A stretch of DNA of 64,000 nucleotides from Epibacterium sp. Ofav1-8 (lineage in GTDB: Bacteria; Pseudomonadota; Alphaproteobacteria; Rhodobacterales; Rhodobacteraceae), in NCBI RefSeq assembly GCF_022348185.1, contig NZ_JAKRFD010000002.1, forward strand, positions 310,001-374,000. The letters run 5' to 3'. The notes under the pieces are model-generated. The model searched no databases and was not told where the DNA came from. It saw nothing but the letters and a program-made list of their open reading frames with translations. Shown piece after piece: positions 31,407 to 43,531 of this stretch; position 1 is the stretch's first letter, and each line of letters starts with the position of its first letter. A program made the translations under genes and the position numbers.

Positions 31407-31435
31407 AAAAAAAAGGCCGAGCACTAAGCTCGGCC
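31407..31435 (-). terminator. Rho-independent terminator of the small RNA / LysR transcript
   Basis: A perfect 8-bp stem (GGCCGAGC with GCTCGGCC) with a 5-base loop, followed on the minus strand by eight T residues. Confidence 0.93.
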
Positions 31436-31483
31436 GTAGTCCAACAGGGAGGTATGAAGTGCGGCGTGTGCCGCGTCTTCATG
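31407..31483 (-). ncRNA. Candidate small RNA with anti-Shine-Dalgarno loop
   Basis: Read on the minus strand, the region holds in order: a 5' hairpin (ATGAAG-AC-GCGGC-ACAC-GCCGC-A-CTTCAT, 31482 to 31454), a single-stranded ACCTCCCTGTTGG segment carrying CCUCCC, and a strong terminator (GGCCGAGC-TTAGT-GCTCGGCC-T8, 31435 to 31407). A promoter-like TTGCGG-N16-CTAAAT ends about 7 bases before the expected 5' end. This gives a compact RNA of about 77 nt. It could instead be the 3' UTR of the LysR mRNA, whose stop is at 31602. Expression is not shown. Confidence 0.6.
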
Positions 31484-31489
31484 AGGGTC

Positions 31490-31517
31490 ATTTAGGGTGC
31501 CTGCCGCGATGCCGCAA
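31490..31517 (-). promoter_or_regulatory. Promoter-like elements of the candidate small RNA
   Basis: On the minus strand TTGCGG (31517-31512) and CTAAAT (31495-31490) are separated by 16 bases, a plausible sigma-70 type promoter for an alphaproteobacterium. The match is moderate and such pairs occur by chance. Confidence 0.4.
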
Positions 31518-31601
31518 GGGTTTTGAAACACTTGTTAAATCAAGCCTGCCATGCGCTATGTGCATAGCTGGGCGGCTGCATGCATGCCGCCACGGCAGGT
31601 A

Positions 31602-32507
31602 TCAGATTTTTCCAAGTTCTTTCATGTGTTTACGGTGTGCGATGATCTCATTCTGCACAAAGTCCCGAAAGGCGGAAACACGCTGCGAATGGCGCAACTC
31701 TTCCGGGTAGGCGAGGTAGACGGGCACACCATTGGTGTCCTCATTTGGCAACACCTGCACCAGATCGGGGAAATCCTCGGTCACATAGTCCGGCAGCACC
31801 CCGATGCCGAGATCCTGCAACACCCCCTGCAACACGCCGAAATAGTTGTTCACGGTCAAAAGCGACTTGGGGTTATGGGTCATCAGCTTCTGCACCATGA
31901 CGGTGGCAGAACCCACCTGCGCCGAGCGCAGGCTCTGGCAGATCAGGCGGTGGTCGCAGATTTCCTCGATCGTTTCCGGCCAGCCGAACTTGTCGATATA
32001 GCCCCGCGACGCATAAAGCCGCATCTGCACCGTCATCAGCCGTTTGCGGATCAGGTCGGCCTGGCTGGGTTCCTTCATGCGAATGGCGACATCGGCCTCC
32101 CGCATCGGCAGGTCGAGCACCCGTTCCTCCAGCATCAGGTCGATCTTGAGGTTGGGATATTGTTCGTAGAGCTTCGCCAGACGCGGCGCCAGCCAGAGCG
32201 TGCCGAACCCGGTGGTGGTGGTCACCCGCAATTCGCCGAACACGCCTTCTTCGCTGTCTCGGATTCGCGCCGAGGCGGTTTCCAGGCGTTTGGCCATGGT
32301 GCGGGTGGCATCAAACAGCAACTCGCCCTGTTCGGTGAGAATCAGCCCCCGCGCGTGGCGGTGAAACAATGTTGCGTTCAGGCTCTCTTCGAGACCCCGG
32401 ATCTGCCGCGACACCGCAGATTGGGACAGATTGAGGCGATCCCCCGCATGGGTCAGGCTGCCCGCGTCCGCAACTGCATGAAAGATCCTGAGTTTGTCCC
32501 AATCCAT
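31602..32507 (-). CDS. LysR-family transcriptional regulator
   Basis: A 301-residue regulator: N-terminal helix-turn-helix (FHAVADAGSLTHAGDRLNLS, then SAVSRQIRGLEESL) and an effector-binding domain starting near GELRVTTTTGFG. It is divergent from the indolepyruvate:ferredoxin oxidoreductase gene, with a LysR-type palindrome (32544-32560) in the shared promoter region, so it probably controls that gene and itself. The effector is unknown. Confidence 0.9.
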   Translation of the reverse strand: MDWDKLRIFHAVADAGSLTHAGDRLNLSQSAVSRQIRGLEESLNATLFHRHARGLILTEQGELLFDATRTMAKRLETASARIRDSEEGVFGELRVTTTTGFGTLWLAPRLAKLYEQYPNLKIDLMLEERVLDLPMREADVAIRMKEPSQADLIRKRLMTVQMRLYASRGYIDKFGWPETIEEICDHRLICQSLRSAQVGSATVMVQKLMTHNPKSLLTVNNYFGVLQGVLQDLGIGVLPDYVTEDFPDLVQVLPNEDTNGVPVYLAYPEELRHSQRVSAFRDFVQNEIIAHRKHMKELGKI

Positions 32508-32560: not shown

Positions 32561-32675
32561 TTTCAAACCTTACCGGAGTTTGACACGGATTCTTTCAAAT
32601 ACGGCTATACAGGTCAGCATCTATGACCTATTATTGGATCCAAAATGCAAGCAAGTCATGGTTGAGGAGGACCGG

Positions 32676-35600
32676 ATGAGCACGCAAAAGATCTCGCTCA
32701 ATGACCGTTACGATCTTGAAAAATCGCCGATTCTGCTGAATGGCACCCAGGCGCTGGTGCGTCTGATGCTGATGCAGAAGGCGCGCGACGTGGCCGCCGG
32801 CCTGAACACCGCCGGTCTGGTGACTGGCTATCGCGGCTCGCCGCTTGGCGCTGTCGACATGCAGATGAAGCGCGCGGAAAAGCTGCTGACGCAATCTGAC
32901 GTGACGTTCCAATATGGTCTCAACGAGGATCTTGCCGTCACCGCGCTCTGGGGCGCGCAACAGGCAGAGATCCGTGGCGAGGGCAAATACGACGGTGTCT
33001 TTGGCCTGTGGTACGGCAAGGGGCCGGGGGTCGACCGCTCCGGCGATGCGCTGCGCCATGCCAATATGGCGGGGTCTTCGAAACATGGCGGGGTTTTGGT
33101 CGCCATGGGCGATGACCACACCGGCGAAAGCTCCACCGTGCTGCATCAGTCGGAATGGTCCCTGCTGGATTGCTACCTGCCGATCGTCAGCCCGGCAGGG
33201 GTGCAGGAAATCCTCGACTACGGCATCTATGGCTATGCGCTGTCACGGTTTTCCGGCCTCTGGGTGGGGCTCAAGACGATGAAGGACACCATCGAGGTGA
33301 CCTCGGTTGTCGACGGCGATCCCGACCGGATGCAACTGGCCGTGCCGCAGTTCGACATGCCGGCGGATGGTCTGAACATCCGGCTGGATGATGACCGCTT
33401 CCGTCAGGAAGACCGTATCATCGACTACAAACGCTTTGCCGCCGAGGCCTTCAGCCATGCCAACAAGATGGACAAGCGCATGTGGGGCAAGCCCGGCGCC
33501 AAGATCGGTTTTGTCGCTGCGGGCAAGAACTGGCTGGATCTGGTTCACGCGCTAAGTCTCTTGAATGTCGACGAAAACATGGCCGAACGCCTCGGGATCA
33601 CCACCTACAAGGTGGGTCAGACCTGGCCGATGGACATGAAAGGGTTCCACGACTGGGCCGAAGGGCTCGATCTGATCGTGGTGGTCGAGGAAAAGCGTAA
33701 GCTGATCGAGATCCAGATCAAGGAAGCGATCTTTGACGACCGGCGCGGGCGTCGGGTCTACGGCTGGTACAAGGGCGGTGCGGGCACCATGCACCGCGAG
33801 GAGCTGTTCCCGACCAAATATGCACTCGACCCCATCATGATCGCCGAGAAACTGGGCAATATCCTGATCGAGGAGGGCCGCGATACCGAGGCGATCCGCG
33901 CCGGTCTGGCCCAGCTCGATGATGCGAAACGGGCCGACAATGCCGAGGAAATCGCCGCGCGCCTGCCGTATTTCTGTTCCGGCTGCCCGCATAACTCCTC
34001 CACCAAACTGCCGGATGGCTCCCGCGCCTATGCGGGGATCGGCTGTCACTTCATGGTGCAGTGGATGGACCGCGAAACCGTCGGGTTCACCCATATGGGT
34101 GGCGAGGGGGCGAACTGGATCGGCGAGGCGCCGTTTTCCAAGAGAAACCATGTATTTCAGAACCTTGGCGACGGAACTTACAACCACTCCGGGGTGATGG
34201 CGATCCGCGCGGCACTCGCCGAGGGCACCAATATCACCTACAAGATCCTCTATAATGACGCGGTGGCGATGACCGGCGGCCAGCAGGCTGAAGGCGGCCT
34301 CACCGCGCCGCAGATCGCCCATGAGCTGACCGCCATGGGGGTCAAGACCATCGCCGTGGTCTATGACGAAAAAGAGGACGTGGTCGCCAGCCAATTCCCC
34401 TCCGGCATGCGGATGCATGAGCGGGGCGAGCTGATGAAGGTCCAGCGCGAGTTCGAGGAGGTGGGCGGCGTCTCCGCCATCATCTACATCCAGACCTGCG
34501 CGGCCGAAAAACGCCGTCGCCGCAAGAAGGGCCTGTTCCCGGATCCGGATCAGCGCGTGTTCATCAACTCTGATGTCTGCGAGGGCTGCGGCGATTGCGG
34601 GGTGCAGTCGAACTGCGTGTCGATCGTGCCGAAAGAGACCGAACTGGGCCGCAAGCGCGCGATTGACCAGTCCAGCTGCAACAAGGATTTCTCTTGTCTC
34701 AACGGGTTTTGCCCGTCGTTCCTCACCGTCGAGGGCGCCAAGATCAAGAAGAGCGCAACCGCCAGCCTGGAGCTGCCGGAACTGCCCGACCCGCAACTGC
34801 CCGCGATCGACGGCACCCATAACGTGGTGATCACCGGCGTTGGCGGCACCGGCGTGGTGACCATCGGTGCGGTGCTGGCGCAGGCCGCGCAAATCGACGG
34901 CAAGGGCGCGGGCATGATGGAAATGGCCGGCCTCGCGCAAAAGGGCGGCGCGGTGCATATCCATTGCCGCATCGCCGAGCAGCCTTCGGACATCAGCGCC
35001 ATCCGCGTGGCCACCGGTGAGGCGCACGCGCTGATCGGCGGCGATCTGGTGGTGAGCGCGGGGGCCAAGACCCTTGGCCTGACCTCCACCGGGCGCACGG
35101 GCGCGGTTGTGAACAGCCACGAGATCATCACCGGGGAATTCACCCGCAACACCGATTTTGCGTTGCCAAGCGACAGGTTGCAGGTCGCGCTTCAGGCGCG
35201 ATTGCGGGACCGGGTGGATCTGTTTGATGCCTCCGAACTGGCGCGCATCAGCATGGGAGATTCGATCTTTTCCAACATGATGGTCTTTGGCGCCGCCTGG
35301 CAGCGGGGGCTGATCCCGGTGTCCTATGAGGCGCTGAAACAGGCGATCGAGCTGAATGGCGCTGCGGTAGAGAAAAACCTCCGCGCCTTTGATATCGGAC
35401 GCTGGGCGGTGCTCTATCCCGAGGACGCTGCCAAACTGCTGGCGCCGAGCGTCGTTGCGCTGCCCAAGACGCTTGATGAGAAAATCGCCTATCGCCGGGC
35501 GCAGCTGGTGGACTACCAGGGCGAGCGGCTGGCGAAACGCTACGAGAAACTGGTGGCGGGTGTCTCCGATCCGCGGCTCAAGGAAGCGGTGGCAAAAGGC

Positions 35601-36095
35601 TATCATAAGCTCCTGTCCTACAAGGATGAATACGAGGTTGCCCGCCTGCTGCTGAGCAGCCGGGAAAAGGCGGCGGCGGAGTTTGATGGCGATCTGAAGA
35701 TCTCTTACAACCTCGCGCCGCCGATCCTGGGCGGCAAGGATGCCAATGGTCGTCCGAAAAAGCGCAAGTTTGGCCCCGGTACGGAACGGTTGTTGCGGAT
35801 CCTGGCCAAGCTGAAGGGACTGCGCGGCACGCCGCTGGATGTCTTTGGCTATACTGCCGAGCGCAAGATGGAGCGGGCGCTGATCAAGCAATATGAGACC
35901 GATATGAAGGAATGGCTCGCCCAATCCGACGCGGTGGACATGGATGCGCTGGTGGCGCTGGCGGAGCTGCCGTTGCAGATCCGTGGCTTTGGCCCTGTCA
36001 AAATGAAGAGCGAACAGCAGGCTGCCAAGCGGCGCGAGGAACTGCTGGTGGCGCTGAAACAGGGGCCTGCGCCGCTGAAGGCTGCCGCCGAATAG
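32676..36095 (+). CDS. Indolepyruvate:ferredoxin oxidoreductase, fused alpha/beta subunits
   Basis: A 1139-residue fusion of the IorA and IorB modules, which oxidatively decarboxylates aryl pyruvates to acyl-CoA using ferredoxin. The N-terminal part has GYRGSPLGAVDMQM, a ThDP-binding segment with CSGCPHNSSTKLPDG and GAGIGCHFM-like residues, and two cysteine-rich Fe-S motifs near residue 634 (VCEGCGDCGVQSNC) and after (CNKDFSCLNGFCPSF). The C-terminal part contains the gamma-type GVGGTGVVTIGAVLAQAA. ATG 32676, preceded by GAGGAGG, is preferred to an in-frame ATG 32 codons upstream. Divergent LysR gene is the likely regulator. Confidence 0.92.
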   Translation: MSTQKISLNDRYDLEKSPILLNGTQALVRLMLMQKARDVAAGLNTAGLVTGYRGSPLGAVDMQMKRAEKLLTQSDVTFQYGLNEDLAVTALWGAQQAEIRGEGKYDGVFGLWYGKGPGVDRSGDALRHANMAGSSKHGGVLVAMGDDHTGESSTVLHQSEWSLLDCYLPIVSPAGVQEILDYGIYGYALSRFSGLWVGLKTMKDTIEVTSVVDGDPDRMQLAVPQFDMPADGLNIRLDDDRFRQEDRIIDYKRFAAEAFSHANKMDKRMWGKPGAKIGFVAAGKNWLDLVHALSLLNVDENMAERLGITTYKVGQTWPMDMKGFHDWAEGLDLIVVVEEKRKLIEIQIKEAIFDDRRGRRVYGWYKGGAGTMHREELFPTKYALDPIMIAEKLGNILIEEGRDTEAIRAGLAQLDDAKRADNAEEIAARLPYFCSGCPHNSSTKLPDGSRAYAGIGCHFMVQWMDRETVGFTHMGGEGANWIGEAPFSKRNHVFQNLGDGTYNHSGVMAIRAALAEGTNITYKILYNDAVAMTGGQQAEGGLTAPQIAHELTAMGVKTIAVVYDEKEDVVASQFPSGMRMHERGELMKVQREFEEVGGVSAIIYIQTCAAEKRRRRKKGLFPDPDQRVFINSDVCEGCGDCGVQSNCVSIVPKETELGRKRAIDQSSCNKDFSCLNGFCPSFLTVEGAKIKKSATASLELPELPDPQLPAIDGTHNVVITGVGGTGVVTIGAVLAQAAQIDGKGAGMMEMAGLAQKGGAVHIHCRIAEQPSDISAIRVATGEAHALIGGDLVVSAGAKTLGLTSTGRTGAVVNSHEIITGEFTRNTDFALPSDRLQVALQARLRDRVDLFDASELARISMGDSIFSNMMVFGAAWQRGLIPVSYEALKQAIELNGAAVEKNLRAFDIGRWAVLYPEDAAKLLAPSVVALPKTLDEKIAYRRAQLVDYQGERLAKRYEKLVAGVSDPRLKEAVAKGYHKLLSYKDEYEVARLLLSSREKAAAEFDGDLKISYNLAPPILGGKDANGRPKKRKFGPGTERLLRILAKLKGLRGTPLDVFGYTAERKMERALIKQYETDMKEWLAQSDAVDMDALVALAELPLQIRGFGPVKMKSEQQAAKRREELLVALKQGPAPLKAAAE

Positions 36096-43325: not shown

Positions 43326-43531
43326 CGCGTGATGCCGGGACGCGGGCGGATTGCCTGATCCGGTACATTTTGCTAAAGAGGCCTTGGTCCGCAGTTCACC
43401 AAGGCTCCGCCACGCGCTAAACCTGCGTTATACATCATGTCATCGGACTCCTGATCGGGGTGCCTCTGGACAAGGGCGGACATCCGTATGGCCTGAGCCA
43501 TGCCCGGCATCCTGCATAAATGGAGGACATG

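Follow-up and report, generated by a model that had tools for sequence, protein, structure and literature searches.

A probable SorY orthologue beside an LsrB-like regulator in a roseobacter, with a predicted LysR-type operator in its promoter

What does the short stretch between purL and a LysR-type regulator gene encode in this genome? An earlier note on the window (the whole 64-kb stretch of DNA that was analyzed) had proposed a small RNA there and had assigned it to no named family. We find that it matches SorY from R. sphaeroides in its sequence, its predicted structure, its promoter, and its synteny. It is highly probable, in our judgment, that the element is a SorY orthologue in a non-phototrophic roseobacter, that it would be transcribed from an RpoH-type promoter and block ribosome-binding sites, and that it would form a module with the neighboring LysR protein. 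What the earlier note observed is confirmed, and its interpretation as a whole is partly supported.

The predicted 77-nt RNA occupies 31407–31483 on the minus strand. It consists of a 5' hairpin of 6 bp plus 5 bp (31454–31482), the single-stranded anti-Shine-Dalgarno seed ACCTCCCTGTTGGAC (31439–31453), and an intrinsic terminator with an 8-bp stem and T8 (31407–31435), and our folds place all three where they had been drawn before. Region 31490–31400 has a minimum free energy (MFE) of -34.4 kcal/mol (z = -4.3), and none of 200 dinucleotide shuffles was equally stable. In the MFE structure the seed takes part in a single weak 2-bp pairing, and in the centroid it is unpaired. Allowing up to two mismatches, we found ACCTCCCTGTTGGAC at one place in the window, and because 15 of 100 shuffles hold at least one copy, the motif alone proves nothing.

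The 5' hairpin is supported by the sequences of relatives, with modest covariation. We folded the 40-nt segments upstream of the seed singly in 72 rows (71 relatives and the window), with 100 mononucleotide shuffles per row; the median z was -3.5, and z was below -2 in 66 of the 72, including the window. RNAalifold found no common 5' stem in the full 72-row MAFFT alignment, because stem lengths differ among the rows. We therefore counted pairs in a 21-row subset in the same register, picked from the single-row folds, a choice that leans towards structure. Here, 79.0% of the outer-stem cells are paired, versus 76.2% in shuffles (2/500 as high) and 34–52% when slid. Two of the six outer-stem pairs show double changes (7/500 shuffles reach that), and no shuffle of 500 reached the covariation score. 

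By its sequence, the promoter is of the RpoH type, which the earlier note had missed, although it had read the two boxes correctly. At 31490–31517 (minus strand), TTGCGG (31517–31512, preceded by a C to give CTTG) is separated by 16 nt from CTAAAT (31495–31490), which ends 7 nt before the hairpin. Promoters for RpoHI and RpoHII in R. sphaeroides are reported to carry TTG at -35 together with TAT at -12 (PMC10673084). Pairs resembling CTTGA-(15-17)-CTAAAT reach a score of 6 or more out of 7 in 69/72 rows, versus 0–2 of 71 random windows (20 draws); this score was composed after inspecting the same sequences. A simple sigma-70 scan did not report this promoter; the same simple scan did report the terminator. 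We predict transcription to start at 31483, because the mapped start in R. sphaeroides also lies 7 nt after a CTAAAT -10 box.

To locate the R. sphaeroides counterparts, we relied on published positions: a transcription start at 1,632,642 for SorY and an RNase E site at 2,598,224 for SorX (PMC6238624). In one genome of our collection (G051), the SorY match starts at 1,632,645 and the SorX match at 2,598,225. As these agree within 3 and 1 bases, we take G051 to be R. sphaeroides 2.4.1. There, SorY lies between purL and a LysR gene whose product is 72.9% identical to the window's LysR, and the window has the same LysR–SorY–purL arrangement. The shared LysR gene, purL, and promoter spacing argue for orthology. 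The two elements have in common the locus, the type and spacing of the promoter, the 5' hairpin, the seed CAUACCUCCCUGUUGGACU, and the terminator. They differ in that the window element has a shorter 5' hairpin and scores below the cutoff of 111 bits for the SorY model (RF02651), and in that its host has neither a PF00124 match nor a takP orthologue. The cutoff is a poor guide: just 1 of 394 family genomes passes it, so it hides syntenic orthologues. SorY of R. sphaeroides is reported to be unprocessed and controlled by RpoHI and RpoHII (PMC8307010), and to bind Hfq and act on takP (PMC6238624, PMC8307010, PMC5036791). By acting on the mRNA of takP, which belongs to a TRAP transporter, it is described as limiting malate import in the oxidative stress response.

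Could the element instead be a processed 3' UTR of the LysR mRNA? SorX is reported to arise in this way from ompR-1 (PMC6238624), and the element is located 3' of LysR and oriented like it, with 119–228 nt between the end of the LysR match and the seed across the loci. But the RpoH-type promoter is conserved at near-fixed spacing in 69/72 rows, and SorY in R. sphaeroides has a mapped start (PMC6238624) and is unprocessed (PMC8307010). On the promoter evidence we rejected a 3' UTR origin, which we rate as very unlikely. These data fit an sRNA that is transcribed independently, from a promoter of its own and with a start near 31483, as the earlier note had it, and the position of the terminator agrees with its estimate of about 77 nt and a 3' end near 31407.

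Rfam alone would label the element SorX (RF02784): at the gathering threshold it scores 53.8 bits (cutoff 46.6), and the layout of seed and terminator is alike. In a permissive search, SorY scored 52.4 bits, while Hrs12 (22.9 bits), suhB/MmgR (21.4 bits), and two weaker families were all far below their cutoffs. However, half of the SorY loci that we scanned (8/16) also pass the SorX cutoff, so this label does not discriminate. SorX is reported to be 3'-UTR derived and to lie behind ompR-1 in R. sphaeroides (PMC6238624), and the window element is not in such a position. The window's genome has three matches to the SorX model at E ≤ 0.001: C5 (91.7 bits), the window copy, and C22:436737 (37 bits). 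The C5 copy lies behind an OmpR-type regulator, which is the SorX position. Since the copy at the ompR-1-type position (locus L001) is another one, synteny excludes SorX, and we rate this identity as extremely unlikely. The element thus does have a place in a named family: we assign it to SorY, and SorX is its sibling.

SorX shares the CCUCCCUGUUGGAC seed, the terminator, and the size with SorY, but differs in its 3'-UTR origin behind ompR-1, in its 5' hairpin, and in being a separate copy in the window's genome. AlphaR8/MmgR/SisA-D (RF00519, suhB) are Hfq-type sRNAs with sibling copies per genome, and like SorY they have a CCUCCCU anti-Shine-Dalgarno core that is flanked by a 5' hairpin and a terminator. 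However, SorY has ACCUCCCU instead of the 10-mer UUUCCUCCCU, and the locus differs; the window element's 21.4 bits are below the RF00519 score of 41. TTTCCTCCCT is found in 0/72 SorY rows versus 4/15 alphaR8-type rows. CCTCCCTGT is present in 29 of the 30 SorX loci examined (we did not find it at L009); the 72 SorY and 15 alphaR8-type sequences all contain it because rows were chosen that way. Thirteen of the 15 alphaR8-type sequences are beside a HerA-like gene, and we found no motif at four other HerA-like loci (L188, L203, L205, and L206). One alphaR8-type locus reaches the suhB/MmgR cutoff and another reaches the SorX cutoff; together with the SorY loci that pass the SorX cutoff, this indicates that the Rfam families overlap.

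A third sibling in the window's genome lies at L003:1491-1588 (minus strand), beside a HerA_C (PF05872) gene, and scores 41.1 bits for suhB/MmgR (cutoff 41.0); similar sequences adjoin the same HerA-like gene in other relatives. Another genome has a tandem sibling, L101:1142-1203 (minus strand), which consists of CATCTCCCTGTTGGACT and a terminator, follows SorY at a distance of about 160 nt, and scores above the SorX cutoff. We disregarded two weak SorX-model matches from R. sphaeroides (L065 and L066), which lack the seed–terminator layout. In its main text, a 2025 study of alphaR8 siblings in Caulobacter mentions neither SorX nor Rhodobacter (PMC12559287), and the passages searched in publications on sRNAs of Ruegeria and Paracoccus had no usable match.

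To examine how widespread SorY is, we searched the region that precedes purL (at most 6 kb) in 80 Rhodobacteraceae genomes, one per genus, out of the 145 of 149 genomes with a PurL match. The motif CCTCCCTGTTG[GAT]ACT followed by a T-run terminator is present in 71 of the 80, which goes beyond chance. One more locus (L156) has a one-base seed variant, CTTCCC, behind LysR, and in G018 and G035 the LysR–SorY pair has been relocated away from purL. Two regions (L149 and L177) are ended by contig ends. An exact-motif scan of the fetched regions found no SorY near purL in L141, L147, L152, and L171; three of these genomes have candidate SorY-model matches elsewhere, and G054 has no SorY-model match anywhere in the genome. 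L127 has the sRNA and the predicted operator (see below), but the region fetched there contains no match to LysR. We also noticed a second SorY-like copy (L183) with an operator-like site (score 15), again with no match to LysR in the region fetched. A 45-nt segment of the sRNA is found identically in 27 named contigs, of which 21 are labeled Ruegeria, and this places the window in the roseobacter group.

Although purL does adjoin the element, as the earlier note had emphasized, the seed lies anywhere from about 120 to 4140 nt from purL. The distance to LysR is tight and the distance to purL is wide, so the durable genetic partner is LysR. We rejected a purL-linked cis element because the purL distance varies by thousands of bases. 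On its other side, LysR is divergent from an indolepyruvate ferredoxin oxidoreductase gene (32580–36095, plus strand), and a similar oxidoreductase N-terminus also adjoins LysR in R. sphaeroides. Elsewhere in the window, Rfam reports a COG3860 RNA (RF02940) at 43385–43428 on the plus strand (49.8 bits, cutoff 42.5).

Masking of ribosome-binding sites by the seed, as proposed before, fits what we predict for R. sphaeroides, where the SorY seed would pair with the Shine-Dalgarno sequence of takP (identified by its identity to 2hzk) at -22.8 kcal/mol. We identified takP orthologues (at least 54% identity) in 19 of the 149 genomes, and 11 of these 19 have GGGAGG ahead of the start, versus 1/80 for purL and 0/69 for lysR. 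The mean predicted pairing is -17.8 for takP orthologues versus -12.6 (purL) and -11.4 (lysR), but the controls are only two gene types and a generally strong Shine-Dalgarno sequence could explain part of the pairing. None of 300 shuffled seeds does as well with the takP orthologues. Among TakP-like paralogues, 4/11 have GGGAGG and the mean pairing is -15.8.

The window's genome has no takP orthologue (the best match is 36% identical). Because takP orthologues are absent here and present in just 19/149 genomes, SorY must have other targets. A scan of the 64-kb window gave six candidates and no clear one. For one TRAP binding protein of the window's genome, we predict a strong match (-25.3 kcal/mol). 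Across 31 orthologous or same-family starts (L287-L316 and L224), pairing averages -15.1, versus -12.0 for purL and lysR together, and 0/300 shuffled seeds do as well. We do not claim a conserved TRAP binding-protein target, as a plain Shine-Dalgarno sequence could give such pairing. The window's genome also contains a TRAP binding-protein gene with a GGGAGG start site and an interrupted reading frame (L229, L226).

If LysR is the durable partner, which regulator is it? The window's LysR (31602–32507, minus strand; 301 aa) is LsrB/VtlR-like by sequence comparison. Among solved structures, it is most similar to 9HH1 (245 bits; the next LysR-type regulator scores 104), which is LsrB of A. tumefaciens (PMC11975290). 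LsrB has a redox cysteine pair, C144/C273 (PMC11975290), whereas the window's LysR has Cys184 and Cys190 only. Cys190 recurs in 55 of 71 SorY-linked LysR proteins and is the only cysteine that does so.

In A. tumefaciens and S. meliloti, the LsrB/VtlR genes adjoin the genes for AbcR sRNAs, and in S. meliloti AbcR1 is reported to be driven by LsrB and AbcR2 by RpoH1 (PMC7486931, PMC8844928). As in these Rhizobiales, the LysR gene in the window is directly upstream of a CUCCC sRNA; the AbcR sRNAs silence transporter mRNAs. AbcR RNAs are 114–121 nt long with CUCCCA and GUUCCC motifs (PMC5461406, PMC8844928), but SorY is 77 nt and has neither motif, and there is no AbcR family among the six Rfam families with E up to 1 for the element. 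Other differences are that the SorY-linked LysR lacks the cysteine pair, that the window's neighbors are purL and the indolepyruvate oxidoreductase gene instead of trxB, and that the predicted operator and the RpoH-type promoter of SorY are combined at one promoter.

Upstream of the SorY promoter we found a predicted LysR-type operator, GCTATGCACATAGCGCATGGCAG (31546–31568, minus strand), which is new. In 70 of 72 rows, at least 13 of the 20 scored positions of GCTATGCACNNNACGCATAGCGG are matched upstream of the -35 box, versus 0–3 of 71 random windows and 0–3 of 72 shuffles (10 draws each). The best match starts 51 nt (54 rows) or 50 nt (14 rows) before the TTG of the -35 box, that is, in 68/72 rows. 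Because the consensus was drawn from the scored sequences themselves, we consider this near-fixed spacing to be the stronger evidence. The logo of the 70 reads G-N2-ATGC-N7-GCAT-R-N-C-N-G.

This predicted site resembles the box of VtlR/LsrB, reported for VtlR as GCAT-N3-TG-N3-T (PMC7486931). A relaxed form, GCAT-N3-NG-N3-T, is found in 63/72 SorY rows (mean in controls, 1.2/71) and can be read on the other strand as well in 34/72; the strict box is found in 6/72 (mean in controls, 0.2/71). Operator scores were 9–11 at one SorX locus and three alphaR8-type loci, and 10–11 between LysR and the oxidoreductase gene, both in the window and in R. sphaeroides.

We searched the window's genome and R. 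sphaeroides for the exact operator pattern and found 12 strand matches, at nine distinct sites, while the reversed pattern gave none. Two of the nine are the SorY sites. Three lie 134–145 nt upstream of DUF1127 genes (L318 and L326 in the window's genome, L321 in R. sphaeroides), and another precedes an Oxidored_FMN gene by 83 nt. The sites at L317, L320, and L328 are within open frames, but so are L318 and the SorY sites, so overlap with a frame is not decisive. Targets of VtlR are reported to include small proteins. The likeness to LsrB/VtlR–AbcR may extend to the relaxed box and to small-protein co-targets. The small proteins among the VtlR targets are DUF1127 proteins.

It is possible, though we think it unlikely, that the site serves another regulator or is no operator, and that LysR is a mere neighbor. 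The rarity of the strict VtlR box and the missing cysteine pair would fit this, as would L127, where SorY and the operator occur but the region fetched shows no match to LysR, and L183, which is similar. On the other hand, 70/72 rows have the site as a LysR-type T-N11-A palindrome whose distance hardly varies, LysR and SorY stay together even when moved (L191 and L199, although the operator of L199 is weak, with a score of 12), and in two genomes DUF1127 genes are preceded by the same pattern, which recalls the small-protein targets of VtlR. Together, these patterns suggest that the overlooked LysR gene beside SorY controls it, much as in the plant-associated relatives.

We propose the following model. 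After stress, an RpoH-type holoenzyme would transcribe the 77-nt RNA from 31483. Its exposed CCUCCCUGUUGGAC would pair with GGGAGG-type ribosome-binding sites and block translation, mainly of mRNAs for the binding proteins of solute transporters. The new part of the model is that the LsrB-like LysR would bind the palindromic operator at 31546–31568 and set the output of SorY, so that the two would form one module working like LsrB/VtlR–AbcR of the Rhizobiales. We also favor, with less confidence, a broader view: that the Rhodobacteraceae have an overlooked LsrB/VtlR-like regulator with a conserved regulon made up of SorY and DUF1127 small proteins, that SorY is the functional counterpart of AbcR with both LysR and RpoH as inputs at one promoter, and that a single anti-Shine-Dalgarno seed is common to SorX, SorY, and alphaR8/MmgR as siblings.

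In the literature that we drew on, SorY is portrayed as an oxidative-stress RNA of one phototroph. Reaction-centre genes (PF00124) are found in just 60 of 149 genomes, so SorY is not tied to phototrophy. SorY is present in at least 74 of the 80 sampled genera, including genomes without reaction-centre genes, which implies that its job is broader. LsrB was called unique to the Rhizobiales in 2025 (PMC11975290), and among the papers listed in our literature searches we saw none that links SorY to LsrB or VtlR; a close homologue of LsrB beside SorY calls the Rhizobiales-only claim into question. The proposed operator would give SorY a second input, and it would link three sRNA stories that, in the sources we drew on, have been treated separately: SorX/SorY, MmgR/SisA, and AbcR.
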